Source: Polychytrium aggregatum
Taxonomy: Eukaryota > Chytridiomycota > Chytridiomycetes > Polychytriales
Direction: 5' to 3'
Length of the DNA stretch: 62,206 nt
NCBI RefSeq assembly: GCF_025602895.1
Contig: NW_026516394.1
Coordinates: 1-62,206 of the forward strand
Numbering within the stretch: the stretch's first letter is position 1; the number at the start of each line of letters is the position of its first letter. The position numbers and the translations under genes are program-made. Shown here piece by piece: positions 25,086 through 62,206 of this stretch. The notes below the pieces were generated by a model that ran no database searches, was not told the origin of the DNA, and was given only the letters and a program-made list of their open reading frames with translations.

Positions 25086-25524
25086 ATTCAGAAAGAAACG
25101 TGACCGTTCCTTTATGGCTTCAGTTCTCTGAACCCCGCTGACTGGCCGTAGGCCCCAGTGAGCAAGCCGTGAGATTGTTTCCCGTCCTGGTTGGCAATCG
25201 AGTGGTTTTGGTTGGTTTCGGGAGCACAGTCTTGAATACACCCGGTCGATCTCCTGTGGCGATGATCGACTGGCATACCGAGATCATGTTCCGTGAGGCA
25301 TTGATGTCTCGATGTGTGAGTGTGACGCATTCACTCGACTCTCTGGGCAACTCCATGGTGTATCGATATCAAGATGCTCGACCTTCGCTTGCGGAGAGCC
25401 ATCTGACGGAGAAAGCGTCCTTGATGCAGATCCAGAATCGCATTACTGAACGGCCATGGCCAGCGCGAGATGTGTTGAGTGAGAACATGCACCAACGACC
25501 ACAATCCGGGGTGCCCCGTTTTTA
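25086..25524 (-). mobile_element. Relic A: deletion derivative of the Fanzor/Tc1 element
   Basis: Non-autonomous copy of about 440 bp in the same orientation as the full element at 58.6 kb. The left border ATTCAGAAAGAAACGTGAC parallels ATTCAGAAAAAAATGGGAC of the full element. The right border shares GGCCATGGCCAGCGCG and ends CCCCGTTTTTA, as at the window end. The minus strand inside reads HRDINASRNMISVCQSI, the RuvC-III motif (R-D-x-N-A-x-R-N-M) of a Fanzor C-terminus. No transposase catalytic region remains. Confidence 0.75.
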
Positions 25525-36270: not shown

Positions 36271-36679
36271 GTCGAGCCCTGTCGAGTAGAACGCTGGCCT
36301 CGCTCTATCCCCCCCCTCATCCATCAGTCTTTTTCTTGATATGGGTCTTATTTTGCAATCAAAGTGTCGATTCAGCTTCAGTACATTCGTTTTTCCACCA
36401 CCCCACTCAAACGACAGCACATCCCCCTTTCTCTCTTTCTTTTTCTTTTTTTGGCCCACTTTGAGATGTAGTTTTAAGCATCGGCGACATGTTTTTCATC
36501 AGAGTTTTTCTTCTAGACTCGTCCATCACCACCAACTTTCCCCTCAGATTCCGTACATTCTAGTCCCTGAGCCAGACGTGCGCCAAGCGCCACGCGTATG
36601 TCTTTTGCTTTGACCCTCGAGGTCGCCCCAACCCTTCTGGGACATCGATGCTATTGTAGTTTTACAGCGCTCCCACTTT
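36271..36679. other. 3' flank of the UPF0658 gene
   Basis: About 400 bp, T-rich (TTTTTCTTTTTTTGGCC near 36445), probably 3' untranslated sequence. No gene. Confidence 0.5.
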
Positions 36680-36950
36680 GAAACGGGACACCCTGTTTTG
36701 AGCCAGGACTGTTGGTTGTTTTTTCCGGTACCTGAATACACCCCACCCGCTCATCACAGCCATGGCCAAACACTGTCCAATGAGACCGAGGTCGTCAGCG
36801 CCTTTGGCAGTGCGTCATGGCGTCAAGGCAAGGTCTATGCATCTAGTCCCAGGAGACTGTCGAGGTAGTTTGTTGGATTGCCTGTGGCTCGGTTGGACTC
36901 ATTCCCATCACAAACTGCGCTGGTATCTGGTGTCCCGAGTTTTCCTGAAT
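36680..36950 (+). mobile_element. Relic C: short inverted-repeat element with a Fanzor fragment
   Basis: About 270 bp. Starts AAACGGGACACCCTG and ends GGTGTCCCGAGTTTTCCTGAAT, so it has inverted ends of the same type as the 58.6-kb element (window end GGGTGTCCCGTTTTTA; left end ATTCAGAAAAAAATGGGACA). Between them the plus strand reads AFGSASWRQGKVY (36791-36845), matching AFGNASWRQGKGL of the Fanzor at 58.9-59.1 kb. Orientation is opposite to the large element. The remnant keeps a different internal slice of Fanzor from relics A, B and D. Confidence 0.75.
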
Positions 36951-50801: not shown

Positions 50802-50981
50802 TTGTCCCGCTCCATCTTTCACCTCTCAAAGCTCCCATGAATACGCGTGGGTCGCGATGGCCTCTACTCCCGTCTGTTTCCTTCTCGAGATTTGCTTGTT
50901 TCTCGAATCTATTTTCCCTCTCCTGGTTCGCTTGATGCATTTTTATATGACTTTGAAACCACCAGGAGTGCACTTTGCACT
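50802..50981. other. Peroxidase 3' flank
   Basis: 180 bp without coding signal, ending at relic D. Confidence 0.4.
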
Positions 50982-51247
50982 TGAACGAACGGGACACTGC
51001 CCATTCTATGAACATGTAGTATGTGATGAGCTTGCGTCAAGCAATGCCATAAGAAATAGAACAGATCACCTCCGAGCGAAGACCACCAGTCGCTCTCCGG
51101 TCTCCACAATCGACATGTACACTGGTCTCGGAGTGCCGGTGGCGAATGGTGCTCTTGGACACACTGGCGAATGGTCACGGCCAGCGCGCGATGGTATTGG
51201 GAAACAAACTATTCGGTCAACGATCAAAATCACGGGTGACCCGTTTA
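50982..51247 (-). mobile_element. Relic D: deletion derivative joining both ends of the Fanzor/Tc1 element
   Basis: About 265 bp. The left part (51010-51130) matches 58645-58765 of the full element: shared words include TGAACATGTAGTATGTG, GCTTGCGTCAAGCAA and AACAGATCAC, covering the Fanzor stop codon and 3' flank. The right part (51165-51247) matches the transposase-side end: TGGCGAATGGTCA then GGCCAGCGCGCGAT, finishing GGGTGACCCGTTTA against GGGTGTCCCGTTTTTA. The ends are imperfect inverted repeats (GAACGGGACA / TGACCCGTTT). The interior, with most of Fanzor and the transposase, is missing. Confidence 0.85.
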
Positions 51248-51535
51248 TGAGTTGGATTGACTGTAGTTCGGGTCCTGCACACACACATACCCGTCATCAG
51301 TGCCGCCCCAGGACGATCACTGTTATGGAGGAGCACTCATGGATGCGTATTCCCCGTTTCGCTCCGAACATGCTGTATTCACAGTTTTTGCCCAGGATCG
51401 ACGCAGCGATCACGACGGTACTGATCGACCGGTGACATATTTTGCTTCTCCATTTCACTTGGCCCACTCTGGTTGAGTTCCTTGTTCTTTGATTTGCCAT
51501 TTTGGCTTTTGGCTCTTGCGACACACCGAATAAAC

Positions 51536-54500: not shown

Positions 54501-55893
54501 TCCAACGTTGAGCGAGTGTCCGAAACCAGAGTCTGCGAGGTGCAGCATGGCAGTTCGCTCGGGTTAGTGTCGTAGCCGGACCGCGAGTGCTATCGCAAAC
54601 GGGCAGAGTAGGGTGTTGAATCAACGGCAGCTATGGGTGGGCTCGCAAATGGGACTGCACCTGTTGGCGGACTCGAGCAAGTCAGCAGGATGTTGATCGG
54701 TGGGCGATCTACAAGCATCGTGGATGTGGCGAGTTGTCAGTGGCATGGCAAGCACAAGCAATATGAGTAAAACTACCGACGCCATTTGTAGCGACATCCA
54801 CGGCCGATACCGATCCAGATACCGAGGATCTGGTCGAATGTGTCGGTGTGCACCATCGCTGCGGATGAGGCTCGATGGACATACATGTGAGAGTGTAGAC
54901 GAGGCTCAGGTCGTGGAAGGTCTGCTTTCCGTCAAAGGATATGAGGGCCTTGGCCTGCTGCCCCAGAGACACCTGTGCGATGCCAGCGTCGGTGAAGCCT
55001 GTGAGGGTGTTGCCACTGAGCTGGGCAGCAATGTCGTAGTAGCTGGAGGCATTGGCCACGCTGACGATGCGAATGGCGGGCGATACGTTGGCCAAGGCGA
55101 GCAGATTGTTGGGCATAGCGGGAAGGGCAATGATGACTGTGTTTCCGCCGTTGGCAAGCAGTGAGCGAGCGTTGATGCCTTGGCCCTGGGTGGAGGCTGT
55201 AACGGCTCCGCTGAGACGCGAGGCTGTCGAGTGTATCGGGGCGATTGTGAGTATGAGCATAGGAACGGAGCTCAACAGCTCGTGACTGCAAAATTACGAC
55301 GTGCGATGGTGTGCACCGCTGGCTTATAGCGGCGCCTGCGGTGGAACAGTGTCATAGCGTGTGATCGCATGCAACTGACAAAGATCCCCACGGAGATGCC
55401 AGCAGCAGAGTGGCTGCGGTGTGTGCGAACAGATTCAGGTGCCTGGGTATCAGCAAACCCAGATGCCCGAACAAGGCAGCGAGATGGAAAACTCACGATC
55501 GTAAACCAGCAGAGAGTCGACGACACCCGCGCTCACGGTAAAGCCGTCCGTGACATTGAAAACGCAGGCGCCTTCGTCCATCGCGGGGCTCTGGAAGACA
55601 ACGGCGGTGGTGTTGACGTTGCCGCCAGTGCTTGCGGAGCTGAATGTGGCCGTTGCGATGGAGCTCCGGCCCGTGGTAGGGTTCCAGACGGCGACGCGGT
55701 AGGTTCTCGAGGGATGATAGTAGCCAGCGAGGGTGAGGCTGATGGTTGTGCCGCCGGCAATGGGGAAGATATTGGGCGAGGCAGAGAGGACAGAGAATGC
55801 AGCTGCATATGCAGCCAGGGCCAGGACGAGCAGGCACTTGGCCAGCAGCCGGCCAGTCGAAACAACGGACAGCATTGTCGCGACAGGCATCAT
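51536..55893 (-). CDS. Class C G-protein-coupled receptor with TIG-like and Bmp-like ectodomains
   Basis: Multi-exon receptor. The start MMPVATMLSVVSTGRLL leads into a signal peptide (LLVLALAAYAAAF). An IPT/TIG-like fold follows (VLSASPNIFPIAGGTTISLT), then an unassigned alpha/beta segment near 55280-54870. A periplasmic-binding-protein region resembling bacterial Bmp lipoproteins spans about 54548-53410 (DSGFGHSLNVGLNNL, RQEEAKYLTGYAAGLFAKS, IGYLLPMEIPRTMI, ASFDWITIFGPFVQNYIDG). The 7TM_3 domain follows: ENRHLISMGLRIVIFLITAL, PTFLVLMGFSASIALCGNYL, TPYVIVLPMMLMFGALLIKM, FRPHELFFTMAAPMLVSLV, a glycosylatable loop with WNFTAPLEWIRTI, FPISIFFIFMAILLTSFWIG, and PSGLFTLRSLMNVSATMGTT before a Ser/Thr-rich tail. 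This is the GABA-B/glutamate-receptor-type membrane domain. Probable extracellular small-molecule sensing; the ligand is unknown. Exon joins are approximate. Confidence 0.8.
52640..52690 (+). repeat. 24-bp imperfect tandem repeat in a GPCR intron
   Basis: AACCACAAACCCATC units recur with a 24-bp period, inside an intron between 7TM exons. Confidence 0.7.
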
Positions 55894-56528
55894 CGACACC
55901 ATCGACGTCGCGCAAGGCCGAGTATCGATGTTGGGGTGGAAAGGGCGATGCGGCCAAGTCGAGGGATTTGTACTGCGGCGGTTTCTGTCCAAAGCCATCG
56001 ACACATGCGACACTGGATCACGAGCAGGCTGGTGGGTGATGTCAGGCTGGCAAAACGAGCTGCGTGCTGGGCCAGAGCAACCATCTGCCGGGCCTGCAGT
56101 GGATGCATTGGATTCAGTGATGCAGTGGACATTGGATGCATGTCATGCTTATGAACAGCAAAGTCTGCCCAGGACGTGTGAGTGCGAAAGCAGTGCGAAT
56201 GGCGCTGATTGGGAGTCCTCAGCACTGATTGAGAGAGCCGTCAGCGCTGATTGTTGTCCGTGGGATCACGCCCGGGTATCTACGTCTGGATCCTTATCCC
56301 ATCGCTGCAGACAGAGTGTGGCGAGCGGGGCTCGTGGAGACAGATTCGCAGAATCCAGGGGGACATCGCGATCTGGCCCGTGGGAACTGATGCCCGGCCG
56401 GGCTGCGCTTTTTTTTGTTGGCCAAGCCGATCCGACAACCGCCGCCATCCCCCTCGTCCTTGCTTGATCGCTACCACGCCAATCCCTCACTTGCCCTCCC
56501 CCTCCCCGACGGCATCCATCCGTCGACA
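55894..56528. other. GPCR/RPC6 divergent intergenic region
   Basis: 635 bp between two divergent starts. Repeats of GCGCTGATTG near 56206-56248 and a T run near 56411; no gene. Confidence 0.5.
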
Positions 56529-58558
56529 ATGCCGCCAAAGAAACCCGTCGCCCCCAAGATCGAGACTCTCACAGAAAATGAGGAGATTCTGCTGGAGACC
56601 CTGCGGTCTGAGCCTCGGGTGCGCCTTCGCTCTCGCCAACGCTCCTATTCAGCACCCAACCGGCGGACAAGGCGACAGCGACGCATTCGATCGGCTCTGG
56701 ATACTCACAGTCCATCAATATCCATTCTATGTAGGGCATGACCACCTCCCAGCTGCTGAGCAAGCTGGGCGACGAATGGAACCAGGAGATCCTCGTCGTC
56801 CAGATGAACCAGCTGTCTTCCAAGAAATATGTCGACTTGATGAGCATCGGGAAAGAAACGGGCTTCAAGGCCCGGAACGATGACGAGATCTCAAAGTGAG
56901 TCGTTGTTCTTGAGGATTGAAGTGGTGGGGTGCTGTCTTGTTGGACGACATTCGCTGCGAGCTGAGATCAAAGCGACATGGCTGCACGAACCGAATACGA
57001 TCGGGGTCATGTCCACTCATCGGACATTGTGATCGGAGAGGCAGTCCAAAAACGAAGCGATTTCATCGATCCGCACGCCATGGATAGCTATCCGGTCCCG
57101 GATGACCGATGGCACAGCCGCTACAGGAGTACAGATGGACACACCGGCCGAGACAATCCTCGGATACAGCTAATCCGACGCCGCCTGGACTTGCTGCCGA
57201 CCACCCAGACTAACAGGAATGGATCAACAAGAGTATATCGTTTACAATCTCATCAAGGGCGTGGGCGACAAAGGTAATTTCGAGCGAGCGGTTCGACCTG
57301 GTACATGGCACAGGCCTGCTGCCTCGTCCCGCATAACACAGACGATAGATGCGAGCCTCATCCGGCCTGACGTTGATGTGCAATGTGCTGCCGATGCCCT
57401 GGGATAGAGCAGAGCGCATTCCATGCACGCTGCGGATAGGACGATCGTGTGGATCATTGTGCTGCCCATAGATTATGGAGATGATGACGGGCACGCATCG
57501 CCTCACGATCGCATCACAATCGCTGCCAACATTCGCGTCCGGCCGTGCTGTGGCCTGCATAGGCGAGTTGTCTGAGTCATCACCGATTCTGCGCACCAGG
57601 AATATGGATCAAGGATATTGAACGCAAGTCCAAGGTGCACACCCAGCATCTTCAGGCCATCATCAAGAGTCTCGAGCGGCGGCAGATGATCAAAAACGTC
57701 AAATCCATCAAAGTAGGCATCTGGCGATTCGAGCGATGTGCGATCACGATTCGCTCAACCGAACGCGGGTGTATCGTGGCAGCCTGGAGCCATTGGAATG
57801 CGTCGGAACTGACATCTTCATTGGATCGCTCGGCACAGTACCCCACCCGGAAGACATATATGCTGTATGAGCTCGAAGCATCGTCAGAAGTCACTGGCGG
57901 ACTGTGGTACACCGACCAGGAATACGATGAAGAGTTTGTGGAGGCGATCAGCCAGCAGTGCTACAAAATGATTCTGTCCAAGGTTTGTCATTTTTTGCTC
58001 TCATGCACCCGAGCGATATGCACATGATGAAACGAACGTTCCGATCCACTCGCCAGATCGCTAACTGTCACTCTGGATCCGAATCGCATCTGCCACCAGA
58101 GCTTCCCACACGACCCGGATGCCATTTTTCCAGCTGATCATAACGGATACGTGACCGCAACGGATATTCTGACCTTTATCAAGAGAACCAAACTCGTCAC
58201 GGTCGAGCTGGGTCGGGGCGACATACAACAGATCCTCGATCGGCTGCTGTATGACGGCAAGATCACGAAGCGGACACGGGTTGCTGGAGAAGGAAGCGCC
58301 ATGAGAGGAATCAAGTACGACACCCTCTCTGGCGGCGACGGCAGTGGCGGCGACGATGGCGAAGAGGTCATCGGGCACGTTTACGACGACGACGACGAGG
58401 ATTTGATCATGTACAAGGCCGAGAGGGACATTCGAGGCGGACAAAGCGCCTGGGCCGATTTCCCGTGCGGCAAGTGTCCTGTCATCGAGCATTGCTCCGA
58501 GGACAGCCAGGTGTCGCCCTCGAGCTGCAGCTACTACAAAAAGTGGCTGCAATTCTGA
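56529..58558 (+). CDS. RPC6: RNA polymerase III subunit RPC6 (RPC34/POLR3F)
   Basis: Winged-helix subunit of the RPC3-RPC6-RPC7 initiation subcomplex of RNA polymerase III. The start MPPKKPVAPKIETLTENEEI is cut at 56618 by a GT donor. Next exons: MTTSQLLSKLGDEWNQEILV, VVQMNQLSSKKYVDLM (WH1), NKEYIVYNLIKGVGDKG joined to IWIKDIERKSKVHTQHLQAI (WH2), SLERRQMIKNVKSIK, RKTYMLYELEASSEVTGGLW, YTDQEYDEEFVEAISQQCYK, VTATDILTFIKRTKLVTVEL (WH3), and a C-terminal Cys cluster CGKCPVIEHCSEDSQVSPSS-C that corresponds to the 4Fe-4S site of POLR3F; all four Cys are present. An acidic low-complexity loop (GGDGSGGDD, DDDDED) is inserted before it. Complete to the stop; about six exons. The mobile element begins some 40 bp after the stop codon. 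Confidence 0.93.
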
Positions 58559-58599
58559 GTGCCTCTTGCGCCTTTGGTCCAAAGTAAATCTGGAGCCAA

Positions 58600-58720
58600 C
58601 ATACACTTTATTCAGAAAAAAATGGGACAATATAGCCGTTTCCATGAACATGTAGTATGTGCTGTGCTTGCGTCAAGCAAAGCCACAAGAAATAAAACAG
58701 ATCACTTTGGCAGCCTCCGA
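58600..58720 (-). ncRNA. Conserved Fanzor 3' flank, candidate guide-RNA (omega-RNA) region
   Basis: The last Fanzor codons and the segment between the Fanzor stop (58673) and the left border are kept almost unchanged in relic D (51010-51070), although coding capacity there is gone. In TnpB and Fanzor systems the guide RNA is made from this part of the element, overlapping or following the 3' end of the gene up to the border. The role here is inferred from position and conservation only; no RNA structure was computed. The same sequence might instead be kept as a transposase-binding end. Confidence 0.3.
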
Positions 58721-61080
58721 GTGAAGACCGCCGGGTCGCTCTCCGATCTCCACAATCGACCTGCATACTGTGATCATGTTGCGCGCCGCATTGACGTCGC
58801 GATTCCACACTGTCCGGCAGCTGGGATTCTTGCAGCTCCTGACAAAGTGGGAATTCGCAACACTGGGCGCATCGAGTCCTTCCAACCGAACTGGCTCCAG
58901 GCACTTGGAGCACACTTGCGAGGTGTTGAACTCGTTCGTCGAGACTACCTTGACGCTTCCATGATGGTGATTGGGACGGCGACGGTGGTGCTCGAATTGC
59001 TCAAGTACCGAGCAAACCGCTGCCTCCGAGGGCTGGATGCATAGCCCCTTGCCTTGTCGCCATGACGCATTGCCAAAGGCGATCACCACATCGGTCCGTA
59101 TCGGGGCGTGCTTCAGGACGACCTTGCACATCCTGTCGACGGCCACTTGGCGTCTCCTGTGGCCCGTGAAGCGATGGTGACGGGCCTTCTTGCCAAGGTG
59201 GAAGTCGAGCTGCACCCGCAGCTCCGGTCGCAGGACATGGGTGAGATGGACCTTGAAAGCCTCCGAGGACGACACCTTGGGCGAGGGGGTGGTCGACATC
59301 CAGGTCTCGATGCTGAGTCGATACTTTCATGTGTTGTGCCACTTGGTGTTGGACGTATGGCCACACATGTGCTGGTAGTGGCCATTGGAGAATGAGACCA
59401 CCTCGTCTTGGTGGCCCGGTGCTTGGATGACCGCCGTGAAGATGGAGCCGACTCCAGGATCGATGCCAATCCAAGTGGTGCGGTTGGGGTCTGGGTCGCC
59501 GATGTGGGTCTGGATGCGCTGTTCGGCAGTCGGAGGAGGCTCGATGGTACTCGGTGCGATCGGTTTCGACGCACAAAACTTGACGAGACCGATGGTGCAT
59601 CCAATTCCATCGGTGCTGATCTCGTAGTTTGAACAGCTTCTTGTTTCACGTCCCGCTCTTGAAGAGGGAACTACGCAGCTTGAAGCAACTGCGCCATAGA
59701 CGATCCTGGTTGTTGACACCGTCATCACCTTGTTCCTTGAGCATGTCCCGGGTGAGTCCAAGGCGTTTCTTGGACCAAGGAGTTCCCAGAGAGTGACGGT
59801 GTCGATCTTGACATACTTGGCCGTGGCAGTGCACAGAGGAACCCTCATGCACACGGCCGGAGGAGTGTCAAGAGCGAGGCTGGCTTGAGAGCCACTTGAT
59901 CCTGGATGCCAGCGTGTGATCTTGGCCTTGGTGAACCTCTTGTCGTCGGAGGGAATGCCTCTGCAGTGAGCTCGTCCAGCTTGGCCTGGCGCTGCAACTC
60001 GGTGACTCGGAGGGCGGGCATGTCACAGTCGATCCACTTGTGGACATTGTCGACCATCTTGTCCCGGCGAGGATTCCCACATGGTGTGAGAGGCGATGGA
60101 GGGCCCGGAAGCGGTCCTGGTCGGTTGCTGTACCGAAACTCGTCCAGGACGTGGCCCAAAGTCCGGGTAGAGGAACTCGAGATCGGCCTTGGGTGAGTCC
60201 TGCCCTGGTTTCTCGAAGAGCTCGAGACAGGCCTCGATGGCTTCGTGCCTTGTGCTTGTTGGCTGGGAAGATGGCAGCGCAGAAGCGGCGAAGGAGTCGC
60301 CAGTAGGCCAGGTCGAGGTGGGTGGTGCAGTTGGTGGCATAGGCATTGACAGCCAGTGTGAGAAGCTGACTGTGTAGCACCATCAGGCAGACGAGGGGGC
60401 CGGAGGCAGGTCTGCGTGCCGAGTGGACTGGTAGTCGCGAAAGGAAGCGACCAGATGCTCGTTGTATTTCTCATTGTCCCCGGTCGGGGAGAGGGCACCG
60501 TCCTGGACGATCTTGAAGCATTGACGGATGAATGCAGGGGTGGACTTGGAGATGACGGGGACGGGAAGATCCTGCTCGATGCACCGGAGGATGTGCAGGT
60601 TGAGCAGCCTGGATGCCTCGAACTGGATCTGGGTCATGGCCTCGACGGTGGCGGATCTGGGTCATGGCTGCGACAGTGGCCTGGATCTTGTCGCGGAGAG
60701 CGGGATTGAGACAACAGCCATCCATCATCTGCTTGAAGCAGCTGAACTGAGGGGCGGATGACCTTCCATCCACGAGTGGGGACAGAACTCTTGAGGGGGT
60801 GATATTTTGGACACTTGCTAGTGTTGCAGCGTTCGTGATCGGTGCCATCGCACTGGCGACATCGCTTGCCGGTACTCGAGGAAGTAGATGGACCAGGCTC
60901 GGTGGGATCGACATCCATTGGATCTGTAGAAGCAGTGGTGGTGAGCGACGGAGCAACAGACGAACAAGCATGCGTGGGGTCAGAATACGAACCAGAGACA
61001 GGCTCCGACTGTGACTTGGCTTTCTTGGGCCTGGGTGGCCGAGGCTGGCCATCACCGGCACCCTTGCGCTTCGGAGGCAT
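58673..61080 (-). pseudogene. Fanzor (TnpB-like RNA-guided nuclease family), frame-disrupted
   Basis: Eukaryotic TnpB homologue. N-terminus at 61080: MPPKRKGAGDG, basic stretch, then a Cys/His knuckle CRQCDGTDHERCNTSKCP. Next, in other frames, come SCFKQMMDGCCLNPALRDKI, QFEASRLLNLHILRCIEQDL, LAVNAYATNCTTHLDLAYWR, KYVKIDTVTLWELL and the family block ISTDGIGCTIGLV. The RuvC domain follows: RuvC-I WIGIDPGVGSIFTAV with the catalytic Asp (about 59450-59475); RuvC-II region VVIAFGNASWRQG; zinc ribbon CSKC...CKNPSC; RuvC-III WNRDVNAARNM (58773-58804). These parts lie in different reading frames and I found no clean GT-AG introns to join all of them. One shift coincides with a 28-bp tandem duplication (60625-60680), and an in-frame stop follows LFKSGT. 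It is therefore probably inactive, unless some breaks are introns or sequencing errors. A TATA-like element lies upstream. Confidence 0.75.
60625..60680 (-). repeat. 28-bp tandem duplication inside the Fanzor gene
   Basis: GGATCTGGGTCATGGC occurs at 60625 and again at 60653, a period of 28, which is not a multiple of three. It coincides with a change of reading frame between MTQIRHRR and MTQIQFEASR. Confidence 0.85.
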
Positions 61081-61206
61081 GGGGCAGAGGATGCTGGATG
61101 CCTGCCAGTGGTACTGGTCAGAGCAGAGACTTTTTTTATCGTACAATAGCGCGATGATCAGATCAAGGCGAGATGAGGGAAGAAAGCAGCAGGACGAAGG
61201 TGTGGC

Positions 61207-61213
61207 ATTTATA
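61207..61213 (-). promoter_or_regulatory. Possible TATA box of the Fanzor gene
   Basis: The minus strand reads GGTATAAATG about 130 bp before the Fanzor ATG, in the gap between the transposase and Fanzor. Motif match only. Confidence 0.35.
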
Positions 61214-61263
61214 CCCGAGAGCAGGAACCCGTCTGCGCGGGCTGGTTGGGGAAGTGACCCTGT

Positions 61264-62178
61264 TCAAAAATCGCCGAGAGGTTCAAGCCAGGGATGTGAA
61301 CGCGAAAATGGCGGCTTGATTGGAGGGAACTCAACCCCAAATTGGAGGAACTCAACCCCAAAGAAGTTCTCGATGGGATTGAAGTCGGGCGAGGCAGGTG
61401 GGGTGAAGATCACTGACCATCCTCGGCGCTCGATGCAGTCCAGGACAGCCATTGTCTTGTGCATGCTGACATTGTCCATCACAATCACAGAGTCGTCTGG
61501 GAAGGTCGCTCGCTCAAAGAACTCGACCATCGAGTGTGTCTTGAATGATGTGGGGATGTACATGCGATGCAGCACACCAGAGTGGTTGATGGCAAATGCA
61601 GCCGAGACAGACTTGTGCTTCATGTGATTGCGCTGGCGAAGCGGAGCACCCTTCGGTGAGTATCCGTAAAGAGGGAAAATGGATTTCCTGATCCCTGTCT
61701 CGTCGACAAAAACGAATCGTCGTGGGTCGATGGAGCGGGCCTGGTCCCTGAACTGTGCCACTCGCTCATCCAGTCGCTTGGACTTGTAGAGGTGTGTTGC
61801 CCTCTTGTGTGAGAGACCTGCTCGGTGGATGGCAGTGTGGCAGAGTGAGAGTGATACTTTCCTCTGGAGGATGGACTCGAGCTTGCATCGCAACACAGGA
61901 CCAGTCTGGAACGGGTCCTGTTCAATCAGGGTGCGAATGACTGGACATGCCTGCTCGAAGAAAGTGGATCTGCGAGCTGGGACCCGGGATGGGTCATCCA
62001 GCTTGCATCCTCGGTGCCATCGATGGATGGTGCTCTTGGATACACTGAATATGGAGGCGACCTTACGCAGGCTATGGATGAGGGCGTAGCATCGCAATGC
62101 GGCGGTGCGAAAGTCGGATGTGTGGCGAATGGTCATGGCCAGCGCGCGATAACATTGGGTAACAAAATGTTTGATCAA
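61264..62178 (-). CDS. Tc1/mariner (IS630-type) DD34E transposase
   Basis: An uninterrupted frame of up to 304 residues. The likely start is the Met at residue 15 (MTIRHTSDFRTAALRCY). An N-terminal helix-turn-helix (IHSLRKVASIFSVSKSTIHR) is followed by a linker and second DNA-binding helix (FQTGPVLRCKLESILQRKVS). Catalytic residues are D159 in FVFVDETGI, D235 in VIVMDNVSMHK and E270 in SPDFNPIENFF; 34 residues separate the second Asp from the Glu, the Tc1 spacing. After NPIENFF the usual C-terminal helices are replaced by a short tail (GVEFLQFGVEFPPIKP...) encoded partly by a tandem duplication, so the C-terminus looks altered. No introns or stops. It acts at the element ends by cut-and-paste transposition at TA sites, by family. 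Confidence 0.88.
   Translation of the reverse strand: MIKHFVTQCYRALAMTIRHTSDFRTAALRCYALIHSLRKVASIFSVSKSTIHRWHRGCKLDDPSRVPARRSTFFEQACPVIRTLIEQDPFQTGPVLRCKLESILQRKVSLSLCHTAIHRAGLSHKRATHLYKSKRLDERVAQFRDQARSIDPRRFVFVDETGIRKSIFPLYGYSPKGAPLRQRNHMKHKSVSAAFAINHSGVLHRMYIPTSFKTHSMVEFFERATFPDDSVIVMDNVSMHKTMAVLDCIERRGWSVIFTPPASPDFNPIENFFGVEFLQFGVEFPPIKPPFSRSHPWLEPLGDF
61329..61377 (-). repeat. Tandem duplication at the 3' end of the transposase gene
   Basis: The minus strand reads GGGGTTGAGTTCC twice at about 24 bp, encoding the doubled FGVEF motif that follows the catalytic NPIENFF. Confidence 0.8.
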
Positions 62179-62206
62179 TGGCCAAACCCTGGGTGTCCCG
62201 TTTTTA

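Follow-up and report, generated by a model that had tools for sequence, protein, structure and literature searches.

A Fanzor1 gene inside a Tc1/mariner transposon family of Polychytrium aggregatum and a one-sided base at its insertion sites

What does an RNA-guided nuclease do for the transposon that carries it? According to passages of PMC10432273, what Fanzor does biologically is not known, and the question is raised anew at the end of a contig of the chytrid Polychytrium aggregatum. The window analyzed here is that complete contig (C104, 62206 bases), taken from an assembly of 64.7 Mb in 418 contigs. On its minus strand, an element at 58602-62206 combines a Tc1/mariner transposase (IS630-type, DD34E) with a Fanzor1 gene. 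The window element and its relatives are one composite Tc1/mariner unit, about 3.74 kb at full length, and the target base beside their insertion sites is one-sided and family-specific. We put at roughly 0.6 the probability that Fanzor in this composite transposon drives retention at TTA sites and that the one-sided base is the imprint of its target-adjacent motif (TAM).

Two genes between one pair of ends

With the Fanzor part of the window as query, the best 40 of 1077 genome candidates scored gave, besides the window, 37 places covering approximately the whole query, two over about 1.65 kb, and four short matches; the transposase part retrieved 39 further places (best 40 of 656 candidates scored). 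Twenty-nine relatives (L010-L038) were read from the Fanzor-part matches, window excluded, a sample biased toward good Fanzor copies in which L030, L031, and L032 repeat the flanks of other loci. Both genes, whole or partial, lie between the same two ends in 28 of them, with the transposase part incomplete in some copies; in L011 the second end is changed. Small changes aside, a Fanzor-side end of the pattern TA-CACTTTATTCAGAAAAAACGGGA and a transposase-side end of the pattern TCCCGTTTTTTATTGGAT(T/C)GCC(T/C)G-TA are common to 28 of 29. TA flanks both sides in 25 of 28 loci, the exceptions being CA on the left at one site (L019, L030) and TG on the right in L038. The terminal inverted repeats are imperfect, and their core, AAAAAACGGGACA, is shared by the two ends of L017.

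Exact end patterns occur 251 times (transposase side) and 294 times (Fanzor side) across the genome, counts that include second copies of identical sites; because reversed-pattern controls yielded none, chance is excluded. Among the matches listed (91 right, 100 left), 70 pairs of ends were obtained, leaving 21 right and 30 left ends unpaired. These 70 comprise 54 pairs of 3389-3790 bases, 4 of 1113-1114 bases, and 12 of 283-699 bases; both genes were read in the read loci only, and the gene content of the other long pairs is presumed from their size. Two neighboring or nested elements with ends of their own would be conceivable given that both kinds are found apart elsewhere in eukaryotes (passages of PMC3627910), but the chance of such an arrangement here is minimal: the 28 copies having both ends are free of internal end patterns, and none of the 70 listed pairs measures between 1.12 and 3.38 kb, the size range of a solo transposase or solo Fanzor class. 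The sequence-only reading had proposed a single composite transposon, to be checked by finding other genomic copies with both genes between the same ends and TA duplications, and to be abandoned if each gene had separate ends; the former were found and the latter were not. Its description of a nuclease captured by a mariner-type element is a fair one, although not new, as the same make-up appears in passages of PMC3627910.

In the window, copy-end alignment places the Fanzor-side TA of the target duplication at 58602..58603 (exact end at C104:58602), which corrects the element start of 58597 given previously. The adjoining terminal inverted repeat, the right end (RE) in the Fanzor sense, occupies 58604..58631 on the minus strand and is the end with 294 exact genome matches. 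The transposase-side or left end (LE, Fanzor sense; 62160..62206, minus strand, inner bound approximate) is cut by the contig end, which falls inside the element; about 13 bases are missing by comparison with the twin locus C359 (L010), where this end is intact, and the target TA is present on the Fanzor side only. Of the two imperfect inverted ends first reported, the one following the Fanzor-side TA was recovered, and the other is incomplete.

The window and C359 differ by 73 substitutions and 21 small indels, all within 58651-61130, the Fanzor region; no difference falls in 61270-62206, and two 2-base indels are all that separates the flanks. The Fanzor1 gene (58702..61080, minus strand, bounds from intact copies encoding 790 amino acids, aa) has an open frame of 791 aa in C359 and a broken one in the window. 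Its GIDPG, CSKC, CKNPSC, and RDVNAARNM motifs are all present on one strand, as originally claimed, but spread over separate open reading frames (ORFs) rather than in a single gene-length frame. Because the contig ends inside a repeat, an assembly error or local conversion is suggested as the source of the broken frame. The window copy was not used for any functional inference.

The transposase ORF (61264..62178, minus strand, 304 aa) has D159, D235, and E270 at exactly the positions expected from the first inspection, with a spacing of 34 between the last two (counted in L017). The window protein scores 76.6 bits against Pfam DDE_3 (cut-off 28.6), and the L017 copy 121.2 bits against the IS630 model NF033545 (cut-off 100). 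After FFG, the normal C-terminus is replaced through a deletion of about 125 bases common to the window and C359. A full transposase of 310 aa is open in 8 of 29 loci, two of which (L014, L027) differ in the PDFNPIE string, and L022 and L036 carry a nearly full one. Relatives numbered 31 among 1481 candidates, the best by E-value being 37% identical over 77%.

Downstream of the transposase, the anticipated zinc-ribbon and RuvC nuclease was recovered, with its motifs on the same strand and the TNB domain (PF07282) at 42.1 bits against a cut-off of 26.3 for a 208-aa C-terminal piece from the window. In 25 of 29 loci, Fanzor has an open frame of 766-791 aa, but the frame of L013 is without the zinc-ribbon and RD motifs. 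The start rule missed an 803-aa frame of L032 in which every motif is present, and L012, L024, and L038 have shorter frames. Judged by its motifs, the nuclease is a Fanzor1 protein. The Fanzor1 motif, printed as D-X(125,275)-[TS][TS]-X-X-C4 zinc finger-X-RD in a passage of PMC3627910, is found as D539, T718 S719 Q V C722, C725, C748, C753, and R759 D760. The RuvC-I signature D539 P540 G541 is invariant in 12 sequences from two families, DPG being a Fanzor1 signature according to a passage of PMC10711439. Candidate catalytic residues are D539, E715, and D760, and we take the glutamate three residues before TSxxC to be, putatively, the alternative glutamate mentioned in that source. A profile of the 12 sequences (two families about 41-44% identical) ranked SpuFz1, the Spizellomyces Fanzor, first among solved structures (E 0.0019); this match spans the C-terminal region only (profile 697-780) and aligns both the E before TSxxC and RD. 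Two LaTranC entries (E 0.047 and 0.081) and Guillardia Fanzor1 (E 0.25) followed. No Fanzor relative appeared among 8000 protein candidates scored, and none of 41 pattern matches in viral contigs was confirmed.

Pooled ratios of nonsynonymous to synonymous polymorphism (pN/pS) are 0.30 over 25 Fanzor copies and 0.42 over 19 transposase frames, in sets that retain truncated transposase frames and repeated sites; variants shared among copies stand at 0.20 and 0.14 of the neutral ratio, respectively. From this purifying selection on both genes it follows that both were kept working while the family spread. By eye, the N-terminal extension of Fanzor contains one CCHC-like zinc-knuckle motif in family 1 (L017 residues 74-90) and two in the second-family N-termini (L115, L120, L125).

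A base on one side of the target

At the transposase-side end, 238 of 251 exact matches have A immediately after the TA. At the Fanzor-side end, 56 of 294 have the mirror base before the TA (LE versus RE, Fisher p 2.7e-80); as background, 13.7% of the TA dinucleotides in the window are followed by A. Symmetric target preference is rejected by the mirror-base count. Over 39 distinct sites (25 long copies and 14 short ones), A is found at 35, and, by eye, none of the others among the 20 flank positions is comparably biased.

Such a pattern would be uninformative on target choice if the A beside the right TA were carried by the element itself. The approximately 5% of exceptions (13/251) does resemble copy divergence, and a same-site empty allele was not found at 19 sites. 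Elements that interrupt repeats make this reading quite improbable. L036 interrupts a tandem repeat of 19-base units at the TA of one unit and is followed there by G, as in the next unit; two units beyond the next one carry A at that position. For L028 (tandem repeat) and L013 (dispersed repeat, copies 74-79% identical with AA where TA stands), unoccupied units align through the junction by eye with no gap. Because the repeats at L013, L028, and L036 align gap-free at the junction only if the base is target-derived, these alignments assign the one-sided base to the target, not to the element.

Read in the Fanzor sense, the site is 5'-T-TA-[element]-TA-guide. Since the one-sided base stands where a TAM must stand, 5'-TTA is the predicted TAM of this Fanzor. 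For Spizellomyces, passages of PMC10432273 give a CA conserved upstream of the left end and a measured TAM of CATA; a passage of PMC11423790 gives the SpuFz1 and GtFz1 TAMs swapped relative to that source.

Sister family 2, which has a different transposase-side tip, carries A at 22, T at 14, G at 2, and C at 1 of 39 distinct flanks (p 0.002 versus A at 35 of 39 in family 1). Four of its copies whose two ends have identical tips (L113, L114, L129, L130) were excluded from the 39; their use as a control free of the guide end was dropped, given that the scaffold region is still present and the copies are too few. Two of these deleted copies, L113 and L129, share about 50 bases of left flank and have different right flanks, which suggests recombination between copies.

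Ghost copies and the persistence of insertions

All 16 short copies (14 distinct sites) proved on reading to be internal deletions of the same element, here called ghosts. In each, the Fanzor-side end is preserved over at least 164 nucleotides (nt) and the transposase-side end over at least 99 nt. Because 100 nt separate the Fanzor stop from the Fanzor-side end (L017), ghosts keep the noncoding tail and the last Fanzor codons, as expected if this stretch were the scaffold of a guide RNA. In the window, the noncoding stretch from the stop (as placed in L017) to the element end is 58604..58701 on the minus strand, a probable omega-RNA scaffold, and the genomic flank below 58602 would be the guide. 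Spizellomyces ghosts are described similarly in passages of PMC10432273. Rfam returned no match at E up to 1 over 55000-62206.

An AATAAA hexamer resembling a poly(A) signal is located at 58607-58612 (minus strand), 4-9 nt inward from the guide-side end in family 1; a transcript cleaved downstream of it would retain flank of about guide length. Family 2 has AATACA at this position, and the hexamer is absent from the family B end; on this distribution the poly(A) reading was set aside. The window contains a second, diverged ghost of the same element at 50971-51263 (293 bases, about 80-85% identical in the end parts, no genes), with TG and TA at its two ends. One site carries a 1114-base ghost in C93 (L055) and a full-size element in C375 (L057/L058); the C93 and C375 flanks are 99.6-99.8% identical, and the left part of the element has 1 mismatch in 449. 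The L055 ghost shares its breakpoints with ghosts elsewhere, which suggests either gene conversion or a deletion that happened repeatedly. At another site, C35 and C382 carry two different ghost types. By these allelic differences, deletion or conversion occurs in place. The L047 ghost sits precisely at the terminal TA of a different, diverged element, such that two guide-side ends share one TA.

The mechanism that we favor would begin with the transposase, which would move the whole unit of about 3.74 kb, Fanzor1 gene included, into TA dinucleotides. Fanzor would then bind an RNA derived from the final 100-170 nt of its own transcript, with flanking genomic DNA acting as the guide, and would cut an empty copy of the site on a sister or homologue wherever 5'-TTA precedes the guide target there. 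The occupied copy would then serve as the repair template, and the element would be restored or copied. Insertions at TTA in the right orientation would be kept and others lost, and a one-sided TAM imprint would result. For the specific division of labor in which every TA, in both orientations, is open to the transposase, and cutting and copying by Fanzor decides persistence (TTA on the guide strand), our confidence is tentative and falls a little short of even odds.

Tc1/mariner complexes are two-fold symmetric, and their target preferences around TA are palindromic. Because a symmetric transposase complex cannot distinguish the two ends, retention by Fanzor is preferred over an asymmetric transposase complex that reads one base past TA, with Fanzor as a passenger or in some other role. 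That reading draws on the sequence difference between the two element ends, on the short copies without intact genes, which share the base at 13 of 14 distinct sites, and on sister family 2, where another transposase-side tip goes with another base spectrum. We nevertheless consider it unlikely, as palindromic preferences fit poorly with a mirror base near background (19% versus about 14%) and a passenger Fanzor fits poorly with purifying selection on that gene.

Retention by Fanzor has to contend with several observations that weigh against it. The mirror base is slightly above background (p 0.01), and the base spectrum of sister family 2 is one that a different transposase could also yield. 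Given that the gene-less ghosts carry the same base, Fanzor would need to act in trans. The 19 sites lacking a detected empty allele were covered by one search that scored the best 40 of 525 candidates with an incomplete query and another that scored all 20. A second, also filled place exists for 12 of the 19, which fits homing but also near-identical haplotypes; homozygosity was set aside as evidence of homing, because the second copy of a site is nearly indistinguishable from the first and could be a haplotig. Finally, an alignment of the scaffold (13 sequences) has a two-sided change in 1 of 23 pairs, almost no covariation, and single-copy folds compared with shuffles give z below -2 in 1 of 6.

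The ghosts also bear on the idea that Fanzor operates mainly in trans through ghost guides, limiting or silencing copies or damaging rival alleles rather than retaining its own. Ghosts lack the gene but retain the probable RNA end, and Spizellomyces ghost RNAs function with SpuFz1 in human cells (passages of PMC10432273). We hold this role to be improbable: purifying selection on a Fanzor linked in cis to the transposase is easier explained by benefit to the carrier copy, and the one-sided base common to ghosts would also be explained by retention in trans.

If retention by Fanzor is true, a eukaryotic RNA-guided nuclease carried on a mariner transposon decides whether insertions persist, leaving a genome-wide, one-sided, family-specific TAM imprint, and the insertion sites taken together form a natural archive of what Fanzor does in vivo. 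Because this family is numerous, includes ghosts, has both genes in open frames, and shows a strongly one-sided base, the role of Fanzor can be put to a direct test in it.

Related families and known systems

Other Fanzor-type genes are present in the same genome. A second Fanzor family comprises L115, L119, L120, L124, and L125; in the one second-family copy checked (L126), a remnant of the last transposase residues stands just upstream (74% of 23 residues). There are hints that the transposase-Fanzor partnership may be older than the family split. An IS607-like family, named by eye (L001, L002, L005, L008), has a MerR-like and resolvase-like N-terminus followed by a Fanzor2-like nuclease; C124 and C379 each carry a facing pair of copies, with the same spacing in both. 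L121-L123, similar by eye to this family, gave no blastp match to the Polychytrium mariner Fanzor. The window itself holds related Fanzor gene fragments at 25174-25386 and 36660-36856, the former of which matches a Fanzor C-terminus and was used as an unoccupied paralogue of the L013 site.

Fanzor1-bearing mariner elements with TA duplications, PGv-1 and PUl-1, were described by Bao and Jurka in 2013 (passages of PMC3627910), and mariners are among the Fanzor1 partners named in a passage of PMC10711439. On the evidence of those passages, the Fanzor-in-mariner make-up has been known since 2013, and the one-sided imprint is the addition made here. A one-sided base in a transposase-bearing Fanzor element was not found in the literature at the title and abstract level, with subscription papers and supplements mostly beyond reach; a search on Fanzor together with chytrids yielded PMC10432273 alone.

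As RuvC and zinc-ribbon nucleases positioned by the guide end, with the TAM at the opposite end, the TnpB proteins of IS200/IS605 and IS607 elements resemble the Polychytrium Fanzor (passages of PMC10711439). Their elements differ in having transposases of other classes and in being without terminal inverted repeats and target site duplications (passages of PMC3627910), and the bacterial TnpB model NF040570 reaches 26.1 of 100 bits on the Polychytrium protein. PGv-1 (Phaeocystis globosa virus) and PUl-1 were compared with the Polychytrium family by published description rather than by sequence. On that basis they too combine Fanzor1 with a mariner transposase in a single element that has inverted ends and TA duplications. 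PGv-1 is described as single-copy with a third gene, an endonuclease, whereas the Polychytrium family has two genes, hundreds of end sites, and ghosts. SPu-1 of Spizellomyces punctatus, the element of SpuFz1, is alike in its Fanzor1, its putative TA duplications, its ghosts, and one-sided bases conserved upstream of the left end, going by the published passages. The noncoding region from stop to end is 80 nt in SPu-1 and 100 nt in the Polychytrium family, and a C-terminal tail RPxVFxRxxP is similar in both proteins. In contrast, passages of PMC10432273 report no transposase found inside SPu-1, its conserved CA (TAM CATA) has as its Polychytrium counterpart a T (predicted TAM TTA), and its Fanzor measures 633 aa (a passage of PMC3627910) versus 790 aa in Polychytrium.

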